From Halothiobacillus sp. (GTDB taxonomy: Bacteria > Pseudomonadota > Gammaproteobacteria > Halothiobacillales > Halothiobacillaceae): a stretch of 64,000 nt of DNA. The notes beneath the pieces are model-generated. The model was not told the origin of the DNA, did no database searches, and was given only the letters and a program-made list of their open reading frames with translations. Where the stretch lies: contig JADQCE010000002.1 of NCBI GenBank assembly GCA_016278265.1, forward strand, positions 310,001 to 374,000. Reading direction: 5' to 3'. A program made the translations under genes and the position numbers. Below, piece by piece: positions 23,200 to 33,570 of the stretch; position 1 is the first letter of the stretch; every line of letters starts with the position of its first letter.

Positions 23200-24624
23200 A
23201 TGCAGGCTGCATTTCCGGAACGTCCGTCTCGCGCTTTCTGGCGCCGGTTGGCATGGCCGTTGTTGATTCTGGCCGGATTGATCTGGCTGGCCGTCGCCGC
23301 GGCGCAGGACGATCGTCGCCAGGCGGTGCTGCTGACGGTACAGGACGCGATCACCCCGGCAACCGCCGATTACGTGATCCGCGGGATCGAGTCCGCCGAG
23401 GTGCGCCGTGCCGAGCTGGTCGTCTTGCAGCTCGACACCCCCGGCGGGCTCGATACCAGCATGCGCTCGATGATCCAGGCCATCCTGCAGGCTGACGTGC
23501 CGGTGGCGAGCTACGTCCATCCGGCCGGCGCACGCGCCGCCAGTGCCGGTACCTATATCCTCTACGGCTCGCATATCGCGGCGATGACCCCGTCGACCAA
23601 TCTTGGTTCAGCCACGCCAGTGCAGATGGGTGGTGGCGGCTTGCCCGGCATGACACCCCCCGAGGAGGAGGATGACAGCGCTGACGAGAAGGCCGCCGAG
23701 TCGACTGACGGTGGCGAGGATGCTGGCGATGCCCCGCGTCGCGGCGGCGATGCCATGGAGCGTAAGGTGCTCGAGGACGCAGTGGCCTACATCCGAGGCC
23801 TGGCCGAACGTTTCGATCGCAATGCCGACTGGGCAGAAATGGCCGTGCGGGAGGGCTTCAACCTCGGCGCGCGCGACGCACTCGAACGCAATGTCATCGA
23901 CGTGGTGGCCGAGGACCTCTCCGACCTGCTGGTCCAGCTCGACGGTCGCGAGGTGGTGGTCAACGGGGTGACTCGGACGTTGTCGACGCAGGGCATCGAG
24001 GTGGTCCGCGAGGACCCGGACTGGCGCGCCAAGCTGCTGGCGGTGATCACCAACCCCAATATCGCGTATATCCTGCTTCTGATCGGGATCTACGGCATCA
24101 TCTTCGAGCTGGCCAACCCCGGGGCGATCGTGCCGGGGACGATCGGCTCGATCGCCCTGATCCTGGCCTTCTTCGCCCTGCAGGTCATGCCGCTGAACTA
24201 TGCCGGTCTGGCGCTGATCCTGCTCGGGATCATTTTCATGATCGCCGAGGCGTTCGTGCCCAGTTTCGGCGCACTCGGCATCGGCGGTCTCGCCGCCTTC
24301 ACCGCAGGATCCATCATGCTTTGGGACGACCCCAACCTGAACGTGGCATTGCCCCTGATCATCGGCGTCGCGATCGCCATCGCCGGTTTCTCGATCTGGG
24401 TGCTGGGACGTTTTCTCGACGTGCGACGCCGACGCCCGGCGACCGGTTACGAGGAGATGATCGGCATGCAGGGCATTGCCAAGGAAGATTTCGAGAGCAC
24501 GGGCCGGGTGTTCGTCCACAGCGAGTTGTGGACGGCGGACAGCCGCCGCCCGGTACGAGCCGGTCAGGCCGTGCGGGTGGTGGCGATTGACGGCCTGCGC
24601 TTGACCGTCGAACCAATCGAGTAG
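23200..24624 (+). CDS. NfeD-family membrane serine protease (long form)
   Basis: The 474-residue protein is a long-form NfeD/1510-N type protease. A signal-anchor (about residues 17-35) precedes a ClpP-like domain with S115 in [11 protein letters not shown]189 in [10 protein letters not shown] is the likely catalytic lysine partner. Between them is an acidic, low-complexity stretch (about 150-182). Four or five transmembrane helices follow (about 285-410), and then a C-terminal OB-fold NfeD domain. Archaeal 1510-N cleaves the hydrophobic C-terminus of its stomatin partner, and the slipin gene 40 bp downstream fits this pairing. Such pairs are linked to membrane quality control. Confidence 0.92.
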
Positions 24625-24664
24625 GCCATTATCACGGGCCGTCGGGCCCATGGAGGGAAGACAG

Positions 24665-25450
24665 ATGCTGGGCAATTTCGGATTTCTGATCGTGCCGCTG
24701 ATCGTGCTGGTCGCGATCATCGCCATGTCGTTGCGCGTGCTGCGCGAGTACGAGCGCGGCGTGGTGTTCTTCCTGGGCCGGTTCCAGCGGGTGAAGGGGC
24801 CGGGGCTGATCATCGTCATCCCGGTGATCCAGCAGATGGTCAAGGTCGATCTGCGCATCATCACGCTGGACGTACCGAGTCAGGACGTGATCTCGCAGGA
24901 CAACGTCACCGTGCGGGTCAACGCGGTGCTCTACTTCCGTGTCGTCGACCCCGAGCGCGCCGTGATCCAGGTGGAGAATTACAACCAGGCCACCAGCCAG
25001 CTGGCCCAGACCACGTTGCGGTCGGTGCTCGGCAAGCACGATCTCGACGAGATGCTCTCCGAGCGCGACAAGCTCAACAACGATATCCAAGGCATCCTCG
25101 ATCAGCAGACCGATGCCTGGGGCATCAAGGTGGCCAACGTCGAGATCAAGCATGTCGACCTGGACGAATCCATGATCCGCGCGATCGCCCGCCAGGCGGA
25201 GGCCGAGCGCGAGCGGCGGGCCAAGGTCATCCACGCCGAGGGCGAACTGCAGGCCGCCGAGAAGCTGGTGCAGGCCGCCGACATGATGAAGGATAGCCCC
25301 GCCGCGTTGCAGCTGCGCTACCTGCAGACCATGGCGGACATGGCCACCAACGGCAAGACCAGTTCGGTGTTCTTCCCGCTACCGATCGAGCTGACCAACG
25401 CCTTTCAGGAATTCACCGGCCATTTCGCGCAGAAACCACCCGAGGGTTGA
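24665..25450 (+). CDS. Slipin (stomatin/prohibitin-family membrane protein)
   Basis: A 261-residue SPFH-domain protein. An N-terminal hydrophobic anchor (about residues 5-25) is followed by [20 protein letters not shown] and the stomatin-type core with [26 protein letters not shown]. After that come a charged helix ([19 protein letters not shown]) and the C-terminal [10 protein letters not shown] segment, which resembles protease-sensitive C-termini of stomatins. It forms membrane-associated oligomers and is the predicted partner of the NfeD protease encoded just upstream. ATG at 24665 is preferred over ATG 24650 because GGAGGGAAG is at ideal spacing. Confidence 0.95.
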
Positions 25451-25547
25451 TCGGGTGGCACGTTGCGTCGCGATGCGCGGGCGATGCTGGATTCCGTACA
25501 GGCCCGACGACTTACCGGTCGTTGGACTGTTTACTGGGTGGCCAACC

Positions 25548-26879
25548 TCAGCGGGTCTCCGTCAGTGCCTCGGCCCGGTCAAGGATGTGGCGATATCGGC
25601 TGCCCAGCCGGGTGAGGGCGACCATCCACAGCAGACAGATGGCGACGACCACCCAGGCGAGGTGCGTGGCCTCCAGTGGCCACGGCAGCCATTGGGTCAG
25701 CAGCAGGATCAGCAGCGAGCCGGCCACCTTGAACAGTCGGTAGCCGAACATGTCGATCCAGGCCTTGGCCCGGAACATCAGCAATGGCTCGATGGGGACG
25801 TACAGGAGTTCCTTGGAGGCGCGGTTGATCGAGTAGGACAGGCCGCGGTCGGCGATCTTGAGAAACGCTCCCGCCTGCAGGGTGGCCTGCGACAGGTATA
25901 CGAAACTACCGACCACGACCGCGATGGGTTGGGCGAACAGGCCGCCGAGCACCCCCAGCCAGCGATGCACCAGCGGCGTGATCAGCAGGTTGATGCCGAT
26001 CGCCACCGCGCTGAGTACGCCGAAGAATGCGCCCAGATACGCCGTGCGCGCGTCGCGATCGGTGACGGTGGCCTCGACCACCTTCATGAACTGGTATTCG
26101 ATGATCGGCTCGGCGATCTGCGCCAGCAGCAGGATCCCCGCGATCAGCAACAGGTAGGGATGACGCAGGATCGCCCGCCAGTCGCCGGTCGATTGGGCGG
26201 CGTGATTGGCCACACCGGGTTTCTCGCGGTAGAGGCCGGTGCGGCCCATCAGCAGGGTCAGGCCGGCGATCAGGCCGATGATGGCCGCGGCGATCGGCAG
26301 CAGGTCCATCGTTTCCAGGCCGGCCTGGCGTATCCACGCACTGGAGGCCATGCCGCCGGCGACCCCGCCCACCAGCCCGCCGGTGGCGATGAACCCGTAC
26401 CAGCGCTTGCCTTCGCGAGTGGAGAAGATCGTGTTGGTCAGGCTCCAGAACTGTTCGACCAGGATCACGCTGACCATGTCGACGAACACGTAAAAGGCGA
26501 ATGCCCCGGCAAAACCGCTGCCGTTGAGAAACGGGTAGAACCCCAGCAATCCCGTGATCACCACCGCGCAGGTGCCCAGGACCACGTGGATGCGGGAATA
26601 GCGTGCGATCAGGCGGTGATACACACCGATGGTCAGGGCCAGGGCCGTTGCCGTGGCAATCCAGACGTAGGGCAGGGCATCGGCACCCAGCGCGGTCAGG
26701 AACAGCGAACGGCTGGCCGGCTTGAGGTGGTAGACCGCGGCGATGATCAGGAAAAAATTCGTGAACAGCAGAACGCGACGGAGCAGCCACGGATGGCGTG
26801 AACCGCCACCCGCCGGTTCAGGGCTCATGGGTCCGGAGGGGCCGGATTCAGGGTGTTTCGATCGTGTCAGCAGGTTCAC
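25548..26879 (-). CDS. MFS-fold transporter related to Npt/Tlc nucleotide carriers
   Basis: The 443-residue membrane protein has about twelve hydrophobic helices and resembles the bacterial relatives of Npt1/Npt2 ATP:ADP translocases. Telling stretches are NFFLIIAAVYHLKPASRSLFL at the first helix, VEQFWSLTNTIFSTREGKRWYGFIATGG in the middle, and NRASKELLYVPIEPLLMFRAKAWIDMFGYRLFK late in the protein. In free-living bacteria the substrate of this branch is unknown. GTG at 26879 is chosen because of an AAAGGAAG site just upstream. It is convergent with the slipin gene and divergent from the serine hydrolase at 26984. Confidence 0.8.
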   Translation of the reverse strand: MNLLTRSKHPESGPSGPMSPEPAGGGSRHPWLLRRVLLFTNFFLIIAAVYHLKPASRSLFLTALGADALPYVWIATATALALTIGVYHRLIARYSRIHVVLGTCAVVITGLLGFYPFLNGSGFAGAFAFYVFVDMVSVILVEQFWSLTNTIFSTREGKRWYGFIATGGLVGGVAGGMASSAWIRQAGLETMDLLPIAAAIIGLIAGLTLLMGRTGLYREKPGVANHAAQSTGDWRAILRHPYLLLIAGILLLAQIAEPIIEYQFMKVVEATVTDRDARTAYLGAFFGVLSAVAIGINLLITPLVHRWLGVLGGLFAQPIAVVVGSFVYLSQATLQAGAFLKIADRGLSYSINRASKELLYVPIEPLLMFRAKAWIDMFGYRLFKVAGSLLILLLTQWLPWPLEATHLAWVVVAICLLWMVALTRLGSRYRHILDRAEALTETR

Positions 26880-26983
26880 GTGCTTCCTTTGACGGGACTA
26901 TCTCCATGACTTTACGGCATTAATGGGGTACTGTTCGGGACAATTTTGTTTTTCATCCGGATATGCCGGATCAGGAGGTGGCC

Positions 26984-27895
26984 ATGTGGCGACAGTTGGC
27001 GTTGGTTTTTCTTTTCTGGTCGGTCGGACCGGGCCTCGGACAGGCCGCCCTGCCGGCCGACGCCGTCGCGCTGCGTGAGGCCACCGATCCTACCCTGCAG
27101 GCCCAACTGGAGGAACGGCTGGAAGCGCTCCACTTGGGCGGATCGGTCGAGGCCGGCCAGCTTTCGGTCGCGCTGGTGGACGTCACCGACCCCGATCAGC
27201 CCCGGCTGGCCGAGGTCAATGGCGATGCCATGCTCTACGCGGCCAGCCTGCCGAAGATCGCGATCCTGCTCGCCGCCTTCCAGCGGATTGACGAGGGGGC
27301 ACTGACACTCGATGACGAGACCCGCGATCTGATGACCCGCATGATCCGAAACTCGTCGAATAGCGCCGCTACCGCCATGATCGGCATGGTGGGCCGCGAC
27401 TATATCAACGAGTTGCTGCGTTCGCCGCGCTATCGCCTCTACGACAAATCACTCAACGGCGGGCTGTGGGTCGGCAAGGAATATGGCCGGGGCTCGGCTT
27501 ACCAGCGTGATCCGCTGCATCATCTGTCTCACGGGGCGACGGCCTTCCAGGTCGCCCGGTTCTACTACCTGCTCGAGAAGGGCCAATTGGTCTCGCCGCA
27601 ATCCTCCCGCGAGATGAAGCGCATCCTCGGTGAGCCCGCCATCTCGCACAAGTTCGTCGGCGGGCTGCTCGGCGAGGTGCCTCAAGCGCAGATCTACCGC
27701 AAGTCGGGTACTTGGCGCGACTGGCATGCCGACAGCGCCATCATCGAGCATGACGGGCACACCTACATTGCCGTGGGCCTGGCGCAGAATCCTAGCGGTG
27801 GCGAATGGCTCAAGCGGCTGATCGTCGAGCTCGATGGGTTGATCATGGACGCGCCGATCCGCACGGCCGGGCTCGGAGCGGTCTCGGCGCGCTGA
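26984..27895 (+). CDS. Exported class A beta-lactamase-like serine hydrolase
   Basis: The 303-residue protein has a Sec signal peptide (about residues 1-21) and a beta-lactamase/transpeptidase fold. The active-site motifs are S88-L-P-K91 (SxxK), S124-S-N126 (in place of SDN) and K240-S-G-T (KTG box). A clear class A omega-loop Glu (ExxLN) is not seen, so beta-lactam hydrolysis is doubtful; peptidoglycan-related or other amidase/esterase activity is equally possible. ATG at 26984 follows a perfect AGGAGGT site; an ATG at 26963 lies upstream of that site. It is convergent, with a 4-bp gap, to a second protein of the same fold. Confidence 0.85.
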   Translation: MWRQLALVFLFWSVGPGLGQAALPADAVALREATDPTLQAQLEERLEALHLGGSVEAGQLSVALVDVTDPDQPRLAEVNGDAMLYAASLPKIAILLAAFQRIDEGALTLDDETRDLMTRMIRNSSNSAATAMIGMVGRDYINELLRSPRYRLYDKSLNGGLWVGKEYGRGSAYQRDPLHHLSHGATAFQVARFYYLLEKGQLVSPQSSREMKRILGEPAISHKFVGGLLGEVPQAQIYRKSGTWRDWHADSAIIEHDGHTYIAVGLAQNPSGGEWLKRLIVELDGLIMDAPIRTAGLGAVSAR

Positions 27896-27899
27896 CCGG

Positions 27900-29198
27900 T
27901 CATTCCTCGCCGGCCTCCATCAGGCGATGCAGTCGCGTCGCGAAACTCTGGTGCGCCACCGCCGAGTTCTTGTTGAGTACATTGGAGGTCATCGTCACCA
28001 GGTAGACCTGTTTCGGGTCGCCGGCCGGGTGCTCGACGATCGCGACCGAGTGCATGTAGTTGTAGACATTGCCGCGGTACTTGCCGCAGTCCGGATTCGC
28101 CTCCCGGTCGCATTTGTAGAGTGAGCCGGACTTGAAGAACACGGCCGCCTCACGCAGTGCCGGCGACGAGGCGTAGCGGATACGCCGCTGGGTCATGTAC
28201 AGCAGGCGCTTCAATTCCCGGCTCGACCACTCGTCGACCAGTTCCCCCTTCTCCATCTTGACCAGCAGGCGCATTAGCTCGCGGGTGGTGCTCTGGCTGT
28301 TGGTGCCCGAGACCCGCGCCTTGCCTCCGCTGGTGAAGAACGCCCCCTGACGCAACTGCTCGGTATCGAGACCGTTGCGGGCGATGGGCTCGACCAGGGC
28401 CTCGAGCAGGATGTCGCGCCGGTCGGCGGGTGGTCGGTCGAACAGTTCGGCCTCTCGCTCCGGCGCCACTGGATAGTCCTCGCCAAAGTAGTGCAACAGC
28501 ATCAGCTGTTTCATCACCGCGCTGGCGGCGGCATTCGAACTGGCCGAGAGGGCCCAGTCGAGGTAGGTCCAGAGATTGGCGGTGTCGCCGACGCGCAACG
28601 GTCGACGCGTGAAACGCCGATGCTCCCCGTCCCAGAAAGGCACCGTGTGACTGTCCCACTGGATGAATTCATCGGCTGTGACCTGCGTCTCGCGCAGCAG
28701 TCGCTGCCGAGCCTCGATGTCGTCGGGGTAGCGGTCGGCGATCGCCTGGAGCAGTGCGGTAACCAGCATGACCTTGCCGACGCTGCCGGGCGTACGGCGG
28801 GTCAGACCGTTGTGTTCGGCGTAGCGGGGACGTTCCGGATCGCTGATGTCGAGCACACTGACGCTGTATCGGGACGCCTCGGCCCCCAGCAGGTCGACCA
28901 CGCGACGCGTGAACACCGGATCGGCCTCTGGTAGCTCGAAGGTCGCTCGATCGGCCAGACGCAGGCGGATCTGTTCGCGGTCGAGCAGGGCCCCCGGCGG
29001 TAGCCGATTGCCGGCGATTTCCCCCTGGTTGGCCAGGCGGTAGCCCTCCAGGCGTTCGATGCCGGTCGCCTCGGCGGCATCGAGGGGATAGGCCGGCAGG
29101 ATGGCGGGCAGCAGCAAGCCGATCAGGCCGGCCAGTCCTGCGATCATTACCGGTGCCAATGCCGGACGGGGAGGGGGATGTCGGCTGATGGGGCTCAT
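27900..29198 (-). CDS. Exported serine hydrolase, beta-lactamase fold (second copy)
   Basis: At 432 residues this is a larger relative of the protein encoded at 26984-27895. A hydrophobic signal or anchor segment (about residues 16-38) is followed by roughly 90 extra N-terminal residues and then the catalytic domain, with S139-V-G-K142 (SxxK), a SSN motif in LSASSNAAAS and a KSGS box in FFKSGSLYKC. Two cysteines after the KSGS box (YKCDREANPDCG) could form a disulfide. No canonical omega-loop Glu is obvious. The gene follows the exported dikinase-like gene by 45 bp on the same strand, so they probably form an operon. The substrate is unknown. Confidence 0.82.
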   Translation of the reverse strand: MSPISRHPPPRPALAPVMIAGLAGLIGLLLPAILPAYPLDAAEATGIERLEGYRLANQGEIAGNRLPPGALLDREQIRLRLADRATFELPEADPVFTRRVVDLLGAEASRYSVSVLDISDPERPRYAEHNGLTRRTPGSVGKVMLVTALLQAIADRYPDDIEARQRLLRETQVTADEFIQWDSHTVPFWDGEHRRFTRRPLRVGDTANLWTYLDWALSASSNAAASAVMKQLMLLHYFGEDYPVAPEREAELFDRPPADRRDILLEALVEPIARNGLDTEQLRQGAFFTSGGKARVSGTNSQSTTRELMRLLVKMEKGELVDEWSSRELKRLLYMTQRRIRYASSPALREAAVFFKSGSLYKCDREANPDCGKYRGNVYNYMHSVAIVEHPAGDPKQVYLVTMTSNVLNKNSAVAHQSFATRLHRLMEAGEE

Positions 29199-29243
29199 GT
29201 GTGGAGCATAGGTCAGTGGGTGGTGGAACGACAGCTGGCGGAC

Positions 29244-32225
29244 CTATCGGCCGGGTGGTCGGGAGAGGTCGACCGCCGGGGCGTCGGTGTCACGCAGCGG
29301 GCGGTCCAGTGCGATCAGGTGTTGATTGGCCCGGGCCCATCGGTTTTCCACCAGCGGGCGAATCTGGAACAGGGCCAACCGATCGCCGACAAAGCCGAAT
29401 TCGATGTCGGCCACCGGCCGCTCCCCCGCGTCGTCGACCGGCAGCAGATCCCGGTTTTCGACGTCGTCGGCCAGGTTGCGCAGTCGGTCGATGTCCGCTG
29501 GCGAGAGCAGGGTGGTGGGCCCCTCGGCGGCGATCCGCTCAACGCCGCCTCCGGGTCGCACGGCCAGCCGAGTGGGGGCCGTGGCCTGGCTGAGCAGCCG
29601 CACGGCACCGCTTTCCCGATGCACCCGCAATTCCTCGGCCGCCTGCCCGTCGACCGCGCCGCCCAGCCCTTCGCTGGTTGCGATGCTTAGCCAGTGCCGA
29701 TCGCCGGTATCCAGGTCGGCGGTGACCAGCACCCCTGACTTGTCCACCGGCACCGTCGCCTGCAGCAAGACCGCCGGGTACACGTGTGCCGGGGCATCCA
29801 TGCGTGCCTGGCGCCAGGCATAAGCGCGCTCGGTAAACGGCGAGGCCCATACCTCGCGAATGGCATCGATAATGGCCTCAAAGCCGACCACGTTGGCGAC
29901 GGTGCGATTGAGCCCGGCACCGGTGAATCCCGGCAAGTCCTCGACATTGGTGTCGCTGCGCACGAACACCCCAGCGGTGTCGGCCGAACCGAAGGTCTCG
30001 ACCAGACGGCCGCGCAAGCGCTCGCGAAAACCGCTGGGTAAGTCGACCGTCGCGATCCATTGCCGCATCCGAGTCAACATTTCGGCAGTGGCCTGGTTGC
30101 GGGTTTCGGCCGTCTCGATGCGACCCAGGCGCTCGTATTCCTGTTCGAGCCACTCGAAGGCCGTCGGCCCGCCAGGGCGGATCGGTTGGTCGATCAGTTC
30201 ACGGAAGACGCCGAATGGAATCGCCAGCCCCGCACTCACCTGTTCGGGGTAGTGATGTGCGAGCTCACCCAGGTTGGCCGCCTTGGGCCCGACTTGGCGA
30301 CCGGCATCGTGGGCACGCAGGCCGTGGAGCGGGCGGAGGGCGGTGTTTTCCAGGTCGAGCTTGTCCCAGTCCGGCTCGATCCGCGACTCCCGCGCGCCCT
30401 GCCGCCGGTCGAAAATCCCCTGCCACTCCGGGCCGTCGGCGGCCAGTTGAACGCGCCCGCCCGGGCTCACTGCCAGCACGACCCGCTCGCCGAGATGCGT
30501 TTCGATGCGAGCGAGCAGCGCCTCGTCGACCACCACGTTGGGAATGCCCAGGTTGCGGGCCAGCAGCTGGACGTGCGAGAGCGAGTTGCCCGCCCCACGA
30601 GTCAGGATGCCGGCCACCGGCGGCAACGAGGCGGTGGTCTCGGGCAGCAGGTAGATGCCCTCAGGATCGAAGCGCTCGCCGCCGGGCGGTGCCGGGCGCA
30701 ACACCCCACGGCCCAGGCCGGGGTTGAGCGGTCGGAGCCCGGTCGCGAGGGGCTCGCCGAACAGGCGGTGGCGCGTATCCGTCAGCTGCCCGGCATCATC
30801 GCGCAGGCCATCGAGCAGGCGGCTGAAGAAGAGTAACGGACTGTCGCGCAGTCGGTCGGGGATGAAGTGCTCGACCTCCGGCGTGAGATCCGCCCAGCGG
30901 TCGATGGCGAGATCGAAGTGGAACCCGAGCGCTCGCTGTGCCCAGCCGGGTGCATGCGCCAGGTAGGCCAGTTCGGTGGCATAGCGAGACGCCGGTACGG
31001 ACGGCGCGTCGAGGAGACCGTCGATGGTCGCCGAGAGGTGTTGCCATTGCCGGACGGACAACAGGCCGGTGCCATACAAGCTCTCGCCCAGGGCTCGCAA
31101 CCAGGTCAACTGCTCGCGGCGGGTGGCCGGATCGGTCTGGTTGCGTTCGAACAGCTGGCTGGCAACCGCAAAGGCCTCCTGCTCCAGCGCCAGGCTGGCC
31201 TGCAGCAGGCGTAGCCTTTGTTCCGGCGAGGTCATGGGCGCCTCGATGCGCTGGCGGACTTGGTGCGCGAGCTGCCCGGTCGTGGTCAGCCGATCAGTGA
31301 GTGTCGGGCTCTGCTCAAGGCGGTCGGCTGCCTCGAGCAGAGAGCGACGCAGATCGCCATCGGCGCTGCGCCCGCCCAGCGCCCGGAGGCGATCCACGGC
31401 GGCCTGGGGGGCGTAAAGGGCTTCCAGTGCCCGGCCCAGCCTCTGCAGAGGCGCGTCAAGGGCCGGGTCGTCGTTCTCTCGGGCGTACTGGGTTACCCGC
31501 TGGATGTCACCGGCATCCGGCATGCCGTGCAGCTTGATGCGCAGGCCCTGAAAGTCCGGGGCGGCCTCGGCGATCTCGATGGCGAGGTCCCGCGCCATGC
31601 TGGCCGCCGGGTGGTCGCCATCGACCGGCAATAAACGGGTCGTCTCGCGCAGCAGCAGGAAGCGATTCGGGTCGTGCCACCAGGGGTCGCCGGCCAGGGC
31701 GAGCATCAGGGCGCGTGCCTGACGCTCCTCGTCCTCGACCTGGATCGCCCCGCGGTAATAGCGGGCGCGGCGAAAGACCCAGCCGTCATCGGCCCGGATC
31801 AGGAAGCGTTCGATCAGGATCTCGCGCAGTGCCTGATGTTGTCCGTTAGGGCCGAGGTAGTCGGCGGGTTCGAGTTCCGCGAGCAGGGTGGCCAACGGGT
31901 ATCCCTGGGCGCGGATGGTCTGCGTGCGCTCGTTCCATTCACCGTGCTGGATGCCGCCACCGTGGTCGCCGCAGGCATACGGTTTCGGCGGCAGGACGGT
32001 CCCGTCCTCGCAAAACCAGCGAATCCGCTCGAATGGTCCGCGCGGGGCGGCCTTCATCGCCTCGATCCAGTCGCGCATCTGCTCGGTGGTGGGCGGTGAG
32101 GCGTCATCGGCCATTGCCGGTTTGCCGGCCCCCGCCAGACCGAGCAGGAGGAATGCCGTGGCAATCAGCGCGGTGATTCGCGAAGGGATCGCGTTCCGGG
32201 ATAGGTGAGTGGGCAGGCCAAACAT
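29244..32225 (-). CDS. Exported PEP-synthase/dikinase-like protein (phosphohistidine domain then ATP-grasp)
   Basis: The 993-residue protein begins with a clear Sec signal peptide (hydrophobic about 18-33, cleavage after AMA at 39). Residues about 40-500 form a largely helical region I cannot assign. Next is a swivelling phosphohistidine domain (about 510-595) with the motif NSLSHVQLLARNLGIPNVV, where H551 is the predicted phosphorylated His. A PPDK_N-type ATP-grasp domain (about 640-960) follows, with VGPKAANLGEL, FVRSDTNVEDLPGFTGAGLNRT and a closing FQIRPLVE. There is no PEP/pyruvate TIM barrel. The order His domain then ATP-grasp is that of glucan water dikinases. ATG 32225 has a GGAGGAG site 12 nt upstream; an earlier in-frame start would add 17 residues. 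An ATP-dependent dikinase outside the cytoplasm is unexpected. Confidence 0.78.
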   Translation of the reverse strand: MFGLPTHLSRNAIPSRITALIATAFLLLGLAGAGKPAMADDASPPTTEQMRDWIEAMKAAPRGPFERIRWFCEDGTVLPPKPYACGDHGGGIQHGEWNERTQTIRAQGYPLATLLAELEPADYLGPNGQHQALREILIERFLIRADDGWVFRRARYYRGAIQVEDEERQARALMLALAGDPWWHDPNRFLLLRETTRLLPVDGDHPAASMARDLAIEIAEAAPDFQGLRIKLHGMPDAGDIQRVTQYARENDDPALDAPLQRLGRALEALYAPQAAVDRLRALGGRSADGDLRRSLLEAADRLEQSPTLTDRLTTTGQLAHQVRQRIEAPMTSPEQRLRLLQASLALEQEAFAVASQLFERNQTDPATRREQLTWLRALGESLYGTGLLSVRQWQHLSATIDGLLDAPSVPASRYATELAYLAHAPGWAQRALGFHFDLAIDRWADLTPEVEHFIPDRLRDSPLLFFSRLLDGLRDDAGQLTDTRHRLFGEPLATGLRPLNPGLGRGVLRPAPPGGERFDPEGIYLLPETTASLPPVAGILTRGAGNSLSHVQLLARNLGIPNVVVDEALLARIETHLGERVVLAVSPGGRVQLAADGPEWQGIFDRRQGARESRIEPDWDKLDLENTALRPLHGLRAHDAGRQVGPKAANLGELAHHYPEQVSAGLAIPFGVFRELIDQPIRPGGPTAFEWLEQEYERLGRIETAETRNQATAEMLTRMRQWIATVDLPSGFRERLRGRLVETFGSADTAGVFVRSDTNVEDLPGFTGAGLNRTVANVVGFEAIIDAIREVWASPFTERAYAWRQARMDAPAHVYPAVLLQATVPVDKSGVLVTADLDTGDRHWLSIATSEGLGGAVDGQAAEELRVHRESGAVRLLSQATAPTRLAVRPGGGVERIAAEGPTTLLSPADIDRLRNLADDVENRDLLPVDDAGERPVADIEFGFVGDRLALFQIRPLVENRWARANQHLIALDRPLRDTDAPAVDLSRPPGR

Positions 32226-32439
32226 GGCAGACAGAGGCTCCTCCGTGGCCGAGTGGGGTGGTGACTTACCAGACAAGTCTAGCCGGATTGCCGGCGCTCA
32301 ACGCCAGGGAACGATGAAAGGGCGGGGGAGGGGTATCTGACCGATGGGTTCGGTTGCAGGCTAACCGTTTTGCCGCGGGGCCACCAACGGCCCCGACAGC
32401 ATCCAATAATTCACCCGACCAGATGAGTAGCCCTGTCCC

Positions 32440-32688
32440 ATGACCAACCGCGAGATGCTGACCAGTGATGCCATCTGATGCCATCAAGTTCGCCCTCGAC
32501 TGGCTCGAGGAGAACCGGGTCGAGATCGAGCCATTGAAATCGGCCCTCGCCGCACAGGAGGTTTGGGAACACGCCCAGGGATGCCGAGGCTTCAACGCGA
32601 AGCGGTGATCGAGACGGCGGCCTCCCGAGCCGTGCGCCAGTACATCGAGAAGCTCAAGTCGCGGACCGCGTGGAGGCAGCGGACTTGA
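32440..32688 (+). pseudogene. Decayed small gene with a 10-bp tandem duplication
   Basis: ATG at 32440 opens a frame (MTNREMLTSDAI) that stops at once because TGATGCCATC is tandemly duplicated (32466-32475 and 32476-32485). Removing one copy restores a single frame running on to KFALDWLEENRVEIEPLKSALAAQ and a stop at 32608. A second frame (32581-32688), with REAVIETAASRAVRQYIEK, overlaps the end and could be a further shifted continuation. Both pieces have protein-like composition. The family is not recognised. It could instead be two very small intact genes (32468-32608 and 32581-32688). Confidence 0.4.
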
Positions 32689-32712
32689 CCCGGTTCGATG
32701 CGCGAGCGGATA

Positions 32713-32745
32713 GAGAAAGGCCCGACACCTTGTCGGGCCTTTCTC
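32713..32745 (-). terminator. Strong bidirectional hairpin terminator
   Basis: A perfect 15-bp stem (GAGAAAGGCCCGACA and its complement) with a CCT loop lies just beyond the stop of the secreted dienelactone hydrolase. The minus-strand side ends in a TTTCTC tract. It could also stop transcription from the plus strand. Confidence 0.85.
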
Positions 32746-32763
32746 GTTGCAGCAGGGGTTGGC

Positions 32764-33570
32764 TCAGAAGACCTGGTCGAGCAACTCGGTGAATGCCGTC
32801 CAGGATTGCTTGTCGGCGCGCTCCTGGTAGGCCCCGGTGCCGAACACCGTGAAGGCATGCGGGGCACCGGAGTAGACCTCGATGGTATAGGTCGCCCCCA
32901 CGTCCTCGAGTTCGCCGGACAGCGTGGCGACGTCGTTCATCGAGATCATCGAGTCGGCCCCGCCATGGGCGATCAGGATCGGCGCGCCGGGATCCGACCA
33001 GCTCTGACCCTCGGGTGTGCTCAGCCCGCCGTGGAAGGTGGCGAATCCCGCTGCCTGGTCGACCAGCCCGTTGCGTGCCGCCTCCAGCACCACCGCGCCG
33101 CCGAAGCAGTAACCCATCACGACGGTCTCCTCGGCCACGCCCTGGTCGCGGGCGAACTCGAGCCCGGCGCGCGTGAGCGACTGCATGCGCTCGCGATCCT
33201 GGTACAGGCGCTCGGTCTCGGCCTTCTTCGCCCCGGTCTCCTGCGGGCGGTTGCCCTCGCCGTACAGGTCGACGGCAAAGGCATCGAAGCCCATCGCCGC
33301 GATCATGTCGGCGCGCTGGCGCTCGTAATCGTCGATGCCGTCCCAGTCATGAATGACCAGCACCGTGCCGCGCGATTCGTCGTCGGCTGGCGACAGGTAG
33401 CCCTCGAAGGCCTCCCCGCCGACCTGGTAGGCGATGTCCTCGCCGCTGGGCTCCCAGTTGCCGCCGTGGTTGTCGGCCAGGACGGGTGTCTGGAAGACCA
33501 GTCCGGCGGCCAGCATCGTGGCGGGCAGCACGCTGGTCGGCAAGCGCATTGTGGTGATTCCGGTTTTCAT
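32764..33570 (-). CDS. Secreted dienelactone hydrolase family protein
   Basis: The 268-residue alpha/beta-hydrolase has a signal peptide (about residues 1-32, ending PVLADN), so it acts in the periplasm or outside. The nucleophile motif GYCFGG is intact; the acid is in AHGGADSM and the histidine in GAPHAFTVFG. It is a distant second member of the family also encoded at 10939-11673. ATG at 33570 is preferred because GGAG lies 9 nt upstream; ATG 33576 is the alternative and would place the site too close. The gene follows the BCCT carrier by 74 bp on the same strand. The substrate is unknown. Confidence 0.9.
   Translation of the reverse strand: MKTGITTMRLPTSVLPATMLAAGLVFQTPVLADNHGGNWEPSGEDIAYQVGGEAFEGYLSPADDESRGTVLVIHDWDGIDDYERQRADMIAAMGFDAFAVDLYGEGNRPQETGAKKAETERLYQDRERMQSLTRAGLEFARDQGVAEETVVMGYCFGGAVVLEAARNGLVDQAAGFATFHGGLSTPEGQSWSDPGAPILIAHGGADSMISMNDVATLSGELEDVGATYTIEVYSGAPHAFTVFGTGAYQERADKQSWTAFTELLDQVF

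Follow-up and report, generated by a model that had tools for sequence, protein, structure and literature searches.

How can an enzyme that spends ATP work in the periplasm, a compartment taught to be free of ATP and to run its chemistry on energy stored in the substrates? The question is raised by a dikinase-like gene in a 64,000 nt stretch of Halothiobacillus sp. DNA (contig JADQCE010000002.1, positions 310,001 to 374,000 of the forward strand), here called the window, to which all coordinates refer. The original prediction, made from the sequence alone, had left a choice between a signal that exports or anchors the enzyme and some unusual chemistry. The results below support export or anchoring, and point to a third answer that had been missed: a linked NTT-type ATP/ADP carrier, encoded three genes away, is the likely solution to the puzzle of periplasmic ATP. 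The export features of the enzyme, its intact nucleotide site and its linkage to a set of genes are supported computationally. Our best explanation, to which we give an even chance, is that the window protein forms the catalytic core of a phosphotransfer system that lies outside the cytoplasm, is fed with ATP and acts on a substrate in the envelope, perhaps peptidoglycan.

Domain Organisation and Nucleotide Site of the Dikinase

The gene was found at the predicted position (29244–32225), on the minus strand, which had not been specified; the plus strand is interrupted by stops in that frame. The open reading frame (ORF) encodes 993 amino acids (aa) from an ATG at 32225, and its assignment as an exported dikinase-like protein is backed by Pfam matches and homologs. 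A GGAGGAG sequence ends 12 bases before the ATG, which is a little far, and a scan of positions 25000–33000 for sigma-70-like promoters found none.

The C-terminal PPDK_N ATP-grasp domain (residues 644–962; 29340–30296, minus strand, like all parts of the gene) scores 105 bits against a Pfam cut-off of 27 (E 5.8e-30). It is preceded by a phosphohistidine (swivel) domain covering approximately residues 501–605 (30411–30725), within which the mobile domain of the PEP-utilizers family matches residues 526–571 at 22.8 bits, just under the cut-off of 23.1 (E 7e-05). Both models match all 27 homologs scanned (Pfam, E ≤ 1). The two domains and their order, with the His domain before the ATP-grasp, are thus as originally described. 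Residues 46–500 (30726–32090), which hold C72 and C85, make up a candidate acceptor-substrate domain that is probably helical. This region of the window protein matches no Pfam family above cut-off, and its profile gave no PDB match at E ≤ 10. It had been called a long unassigned helical region; it stays unassigned, and its mostly helical character comes from a low-quality structural model.

Seven residues (H551, K648, R756, T775, E942, Q954 and R956) are invariant in 31/31 dikinase sequences. By manual counting in printed alignments, they correspond to residues 825, 22, 117, 136, 297, 309 and 311 of the 5fbs chain, respectively. We take this chain to be RPH-Lm, a rifampin phosphotransferase; the PDB listing calls it a PEP synthase, and its numbering agrees with the RPH-Lm paper. 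H551, the predicted phosphohistidine (codon 30573–30575), would then correspond to His825, and K648, R756, T775 and E942 to Lys22, Arg117, Thr136 and Glu297. According to that paper, His825 carries the phosphate, Lys22, Arg117 and Thr136 are required for full activity, and Glu297 appears to bind Mg yet is replaceable (PMC4844700). Loss of catalytic residues was looked for as a sign of a dead fold; this reading fails because they are intact and invariant in 31 sequences, those compared at the nucleotide site being identical to RPH-Lm.

Judged by its sequence, the dikinase belongs to the PEP-synthase-type superfamily but is not one of the named enzymes in it. All NCBIfam models matching it score far below cut-off, among them TIGR01418 (PEP synthase; 84 bits against 740) and NF041857 (rifampin phosphotransferase; 99.7 bits against 999). 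With PEP synthase and PPDK it shares the phosphohistidine swivel domain and the catalytic residues of the ATP-grasp in the same linear order, the ATP-grasp being collinear with that of PEP synthase. It differs from them in its signal-like N-terminus, the position of the His domain before the ATP-grasp, a new N-terminal domain, and the absence of a match to the pyruvate-binding TIM barrel. The residues listed above are its likeness to RPH-Lm, in which the ATP-grasp is N-terminal and the His domain C-terminal (PMC4844700), the reverse of the order seen here; in addition, the N-terminal profile has no match to the rifampin-binding domain in the PDB.

Export and Location

The N-terminus of the dikinase (MFGLPTHLSRNAIPSRITALIATAFLLLGLAGAGKPAMA followed by DD) is a typical Sec signal by eye, and the claim of a signal peptide withstood mapping of the start codon, since a signal-like segment follows the mapped ATG. 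The predicted signal peptide occupies residues 1–39 (32109–32225), with the cleavage site placed by eye between AMA and DD, and homologs are likewise signal-like. Signals were scored with a home-made hydropathy rule (a hydrophobic core near the start with small residues after it) rather than SignalP. This rule was passed by 24/27 dikinase homologs and by 0/16 scored PEP synthases; for two of the three dikinase misses the start was probably chosen too late. Nineteen PEP synthase control loci were examined and three were not scored for signals, including two frames that look to be on the wrong strand. Because 16/19 NTT membrane proteins pass the rule too, it does not discriminate between cleaved signals and membrane anchors. 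None of the 27 dikinase proteins has a membrane-spanning-like segment elsewhere (highest 19-residue mean 1.51), so the enzyme part would face the periplasm whether the signal is cleaved or retained as an anchor.

Both C72 and C85 are kept in 26/27 homologs and are the sole cysteines of the protein in 14 of them; a divergent second copy (locus L061) keeps C72 only. Cysteines number 2.8 per 1000 residues in the 27 homologs and 11.1 in the PEP synthase controls, an average that includes, and is lowered by, the two wrong-strand frames. A conserved pair in a nearly cysteine-free protein of 970 residues looks like a periplasmic disulfide. Because of the signal-like N-terminus and the cysteine pair, the dikinase is probably periplasmic, either exported or anchored N-terminally and facing the periplasm.

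A cytoplasmic enzyme whose N-terminal segment is not a working signal would find ATP at hand, and the characterised relatives that we know of are all cytoplasmic or plastidial, which speaks for such a location. The signal-like N-termini, the cysteine pair in proteins with few other cysteines, and the similarly signal-like products of two neighbouring genes (24/26 for partner A and 19/22 for partner B, by the same rule) speak against it; it was rejected as very improbable.

Distribution of the Dikinase

Dikinase matches at E ≤ 1e-30 were found in 26/274 genomes of the class (21 of 221 genera) and in 24/349 genomes of the phylum, the two sets sharing only the window's own genome. Nineteen of the 24 belong to one genus of another class, for which the total number of genomes examined is not shown. 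Conservation of the dikinase is far beyond chance. The profile of the N-terminal domain matches 26/274 genomes, identical to the 26 dikinase genomes, the matching frames being of dikinase length or truncated at a contig end (G064, G157) or by a stop (G035). In the window's genus 8/11 genomes (its own included) have a full-length match, and one of the three without is 64% complete; among other genera of the family the gene occurs in 1/16 genomes (G014). The nearest named genome found is that of the gammaproteobacterium Guyparkeria sp. SCN-R1 (88% identity). No relative was found in the viral contigs searched. The dikinase matched 152 plasmid records, none spanning 80% of the query, and the 20 listed cover the ATP-grasp part only.

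Two variants stand apart. The dikinase frame of genome G035 (loci L013/L071) is interrupted by a stop, and a search of that genome did not find partner B; the copy may be decaying, or the assembly may be wrong. The solitary divergent homolog of genome G524 (L095; 28% identity) is possibly an ancestral or repurposed form.

Linkage to Three Other Genes

The search for conserved neighbours in other genomes, suggested by the original prediction, yielded three genes. Of 31 dikinase loci, 7 of which come from the window's genus, 27 contain partner A, 23 partner B and 24 an NTT-profile match. In two of these 24 the match is less clear: at L060 the edge of the locus truncates the gene, and the 891-aa protein of L084 matches only MFS and HEAT in Pfam, both below cut-off. 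In at least 10/31 loci the start of partner A overlaps the stop of the dikinase by 4 bases; in the window a 45-base gap separates the two genes. The linkage persists in changing surroundings: among the clusters listed, no other was seen by eye to recur widely outside the window's genus, except antisense frames.

Profile searches extended this association to whole genomes. Partner A occurs in 26/26 dikinase genomes and 28/274 overall, and partner B in 25/26 and 26/274 (G035 lacks it and G179 has a fragment). An NTT at E ≤ 1e-20 is present in 25/26 dikinase genomes and 60/274 overall; at scores above 430 bits the counts are 22/26 and 0/248 for the remaining genomes, where the best score is 297. 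Fisher values for these co-occurrences over the 274 genomes are 2e-34, 4e-33 and 9e-29, which overstate independence because the 26 genomes, in 21 genera, are related. The parts found in G092, G199 and G258 co-occur even though they are spread over different contigs (G258 without an NTT). The other-class genus has partner A and an NTT above 550 bits in 5/5 genomes checked, in three of them on a different contig from the dikinase. We conclude that a conserved, functionally linked set of dikinase, carrier and two enzymes resembling penicillin-binding proteins (PBPs) is supported.

Dikinase loci supplied the sequences for profiles A1, A3 and A4, a bias towards orthologs from dikinase genomes. Excluded from A1 were L059 and L080, whose coordinates extend beyond the locus, the partial or split L060 and L079, and long fused frames; L062, which runs past the locus, was excluded from A3, and the divergent L061 from A4. 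The 27-sequence dikinase alignment (A2) left out the near copies L064 and L076, L071 (in-frame stop) and L065 (partial).

The NTT-Type Carrier

The carrier gene (25548–26879, minus strand) encodes an NTT/TLC-type ATP/ADP carrier-like membrane protein of 443 aa, which matches PF03219 at 62.2 bits (cut-off 21). In the PDB its family profile finds the ADP,ATP carriers 9j3n (E 1e-28, spanning 111–421 of the 427 profile positions) and 9j3j (E 3.5e-18), and no others at E ≤ 0.01. Residue K372 sits at the Lys of the K-A-x-I-D stretch of these carriers and is conserved in 14/14 NTT-like proteins compared. Loci L097, L101 and L104 carry at the same place NTTs of another clade, with 19–23% identity to that of the window; the L101 protein has no Pfam match at E ≤ 0.001 and was placed by its 39–49% identity to the L097 and L104 copies. 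That another type of carrier from the same superfamily occupies this position suggests that what the system needs is transport itself. Two loci (L077:14930–17392 and L078:565–2757) have a second, longer NTT-type gene (730–820 aa) directly after the single-domain NTT; that of L078 matches TLC above and HEAT below cut-off.

The dikinase reaction yields AMP, and classical NTTs exchange ATP with ADP. A single adenylate kinase match and a single 5′-nucleotidase-type match were found in the window genome. With AMP as product, ADP as the usual exchange partner and one adenylate kinase match, the return of AMP is unexplained.

The available parts of Major et al. 2017 (PMC5381601) describe NTTs as the means of energy uptake from the host by chlamydiae and rickettsiae, and as serving plastids. 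They also report NTTs to be widespread in free-living bacteria (45 gammaproteobacterial sequences and one zetaproteobacterial), whose presence in diverse free-living organisms surprised the authors, and assign them no settled role there; a link between NTTs and dikinases is not mentioned in those parts. The window carrier is homologous to these proteins by its PF03219 and ADP,ATP carrier matches. Whereas the known NTTs import energy, it would export it, and at about 430 aa carriers of its type form a distant clade below the TIGR00769 cut-off.

An alternative is that the carrier does not export ATP for the dikinase, and instead imports nucleotides or carries another metabolite, with the dikinase using another phosphate donor or running in the ATP-forming direction on periplasmic AMP. 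The distance of the carrier from characterised NTTs, the NAD carrier reported within the NTT family (PMC5381601) and the unexplained AMP return would fit this. It is made rather unlikely by the intact and invariant residues of the nucleotide site, by the PDB relatives of the carrier profile, both of which are ADP,ATP carriers, and by the second NTT clade found at the locus in three genomes.

Partners A and B and the Candidate Substrate

Partner A (27900–29198, minus strand; 432 aa) and partner B (26963–27895, plus strand; 310 aa), which are convergent, encode exported serine enzymes of the class A beta-lactamase fold, as judged by PF13354 matches and motifs. Partner A scores 29.9 bits (cut-off 22), and 26/26 members of its family match PF13354 at E ≤ 0.01; S139xxK142, S220xN222, K356-S-G and the cysteines C363 and C371 are invariant in 26 sequences. 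Partner B scores 78.2 bits, with S95xxK98, S131-S132-N133 and K247-S-G invariant in 22 sequences, and has weak similarity in the PDB (E 0.02) to TLL2115, which we take to be PBP-A of T. elongatus. Both partners thus resemble PBP-A and class A beta-lactamases in their SxxK, SxN and KSG motifs and in PF13354, and partner A differs in its greater length and invariant cysteine pair.

Since the partners are PBP-like, the substrate of the system is probably peptidoglycan or something attached to it. They point more to peptidoglycan than to the envelope or exported glycan that had been suggested as acceptor. The original prediction also pointed to the domain order of alpha-glucan water dikinase (GWD), which has an N-terminal part, then the His domain, then the ATP-grasp. 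The window enzyme shares this order with the plant enzyme and differs in being bacterial and, as argued above, exported. Beyond domain order the kinship found no support: the GWD1_pHisD model gives weak matches in 3/27 homologs at E ≤ 1 (best 0.022), and none of the 16 Pfam families matched by the 27 homologs at that threshold is a starch-binding carbohydrate-binding module. The ATP-grasp, moreover, is collinear with that of PEP synthase, and GWD as a family was set aside as unsupported.

An exported kinase that phosphorylates an exported or envelope polysaccharide in the manner of GWD may still be considered apart from family membership. The shared order of N-terminal region, His domain and ATP-grasp and the few GWD1_pHisD matches would suit it, and the carrier would be akin to the plastid ATP importer; in guard cells, the chloroplasts are reported to draw on ATP from the cytosol for the turnover of starch (PMC8814037). 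We regard it as unlikely, since no carbohydrate-binding domain is among the Pfam matches of the homologs, the ATP-grasp aligns with that of PEP synthase, and the recurrent neighbours outside the genus, among the clusters listed, are the three partners only.

The partners also allow for an ATP-driven periplasmic ligase or repair system, in which phosphoryl transfer would activate a carboxylate or hydroxyl of the stem peptide or glycan, and the PBP-like enzymes would draw on the activated group to restore links beyond the capacity of ordinary PBPs. In its favour are the conservation of both PBP-like partners, whose SxxK, SxN and KSG motifs are complete, the 4-base overlap of partner A with the dikinase gene in at least 10/31 loci, and the matches of the dikinase ATP-grasp to PigC and RedH, named as ligases by NCBIfam. 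These matches are restricted to the ATP-grasp and far below cut-off, the action of the partners on peptidoglycan is putative, and we know of no precedent in the dikinase superfamily for an acyl-phosphate step, which counts against this proposal. It is accordingly rated as quite unlikely.

The beta-lactamase fold of the partners raises a further possibility, that of periplasmic antibiotic inactivation by a kinase like rifampin phosphotransferase together with two beta-lactamase-like enzymes, with the carrier supplying ATP. The PDB relatives of the ATP-grasp include 5hv1 and 5fbs, presumably both rifampin phosphotransferases, and the patchy occurrence of the gene in the family would suit a resistance function. 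The N-terminal profile is without a PDB match, the drug-binding domain included, the domain order differs, and the NCBIfam rifamycin models score far below cut-off. The occurrence of full-length genes in 8/11 genomes of the window's genus, together with the 19 matching genomes in the other-class genus, looks more like housekeeping. Rifampin resistance was rejected, and antibiotic inactivation as a whole is highly improbable.

Several loci show additional genes beside the set. On a 9.5 kb contig of G199, the divergent dikinase paralog of L061 has as neighbours a divergent homolog of partner B and an ORF of 552 aa with a signal-like start, and neither an NTT nor partner A is present on that contig. 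In two loci of a genus of another class (L099:12544–15879 and L100:3804–7165), two different partner-B genes flank the NTT gene. At L082 and L085, an approximately 905-aa lipoprotein-like ORF lies on the opposite strand between the dikinase and partner A, and other ORFs next to these two genes also look exported, all judged by eye. In the window, the system is adjoined by an ordinary membrane pair (23200–25450, plus strand), in which a Band 7/SPFH protein comes after an NfeD protein.

Proposed Mode of Action

In the phosphotransfer system that we favour, the dikinase would leave the cytoplasm through Sec or stay anchored by its N-terminus on the periplasmic side, with a disulfide between C72 and C85. 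The linked NTT-type carrier would move cytoplasmic ATP to the periplasm against spent nucleotide. The C-terminal ATP-grasp would bind the exported ATP and phosphorylate H551, releasing AMP and phosphate with the stoichiometry of PEP synthase and rifampin phosphotransferase. The His domain would then swing to the N-terminal domain and hand its phosphate to an envelope molecule bound there, and the two exported PBP-like serine enzymes would make or process the same substrate.

A number of points weigh against this scheme. Transport, its direction and the phosphorylation are predicted, and the idea of a peptidoglycan substrate derives solely from the fold of the partners. The carrier scores 43 bits against the TIGR00769 cut-off of 387, is distant from characterised NTTs and may transport something else, and the return of AMP has yet to be accommodated. 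An AlphaFold2 model of the window protein, built with one relative (L003), was unusable (mean pLDDT, the predicted local confidence score, 37). The dikinase is patchy within the window's family. Linkage is also incomplete: neither an NTT nor partner A was found in the genome of G524, although it is a single contig; G357 has partner A and no NTT was found in its genome; and in G258 no NTT was detected by profile, with only an 891-aa neighbour giving sub-cut-off MFS and HEAT matches. The NTTs of G035, G179 and G238 reach 135–177 bits only, that of G035 being a contig-end fragment. Conversely, 35/248 genomes without a dikinase match have lower-scoring NTTs, so that it is an NTT subfamily, not NTTs at large, that accompanies the dikinase. 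One of these 35 (G289) has a C-terminal piece of the dikinase at a contig end, beside partner A, and in G230 an NTT and a fragment of partner A are present with no dikinase match.

Implications

The original observation is confirmed, and its interpretation is partly supported. The superfamilies of the components are known; of the gene set and its proposed working, no description was found in the literature searched (open-licence PMC papers). An exported ATP-grasp enzyme paired with an ATP/ADP-type carrier makes the rule of an ATP-free periplasm testable, and the set gives NTT carriers a concrete possible function in organisms that are not parasites. We suggest, tentatively and with less than even confidence, that many Gram-negative bacteria deliberately supply ATP to the periplasm via a dedicated carrier for dikinase and PBP-like cell-wall chemistry. 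If this is true, cell-wall chemistry thought impossible outside the inner membrane would be powered there by kin of the translocases of energy parasites.

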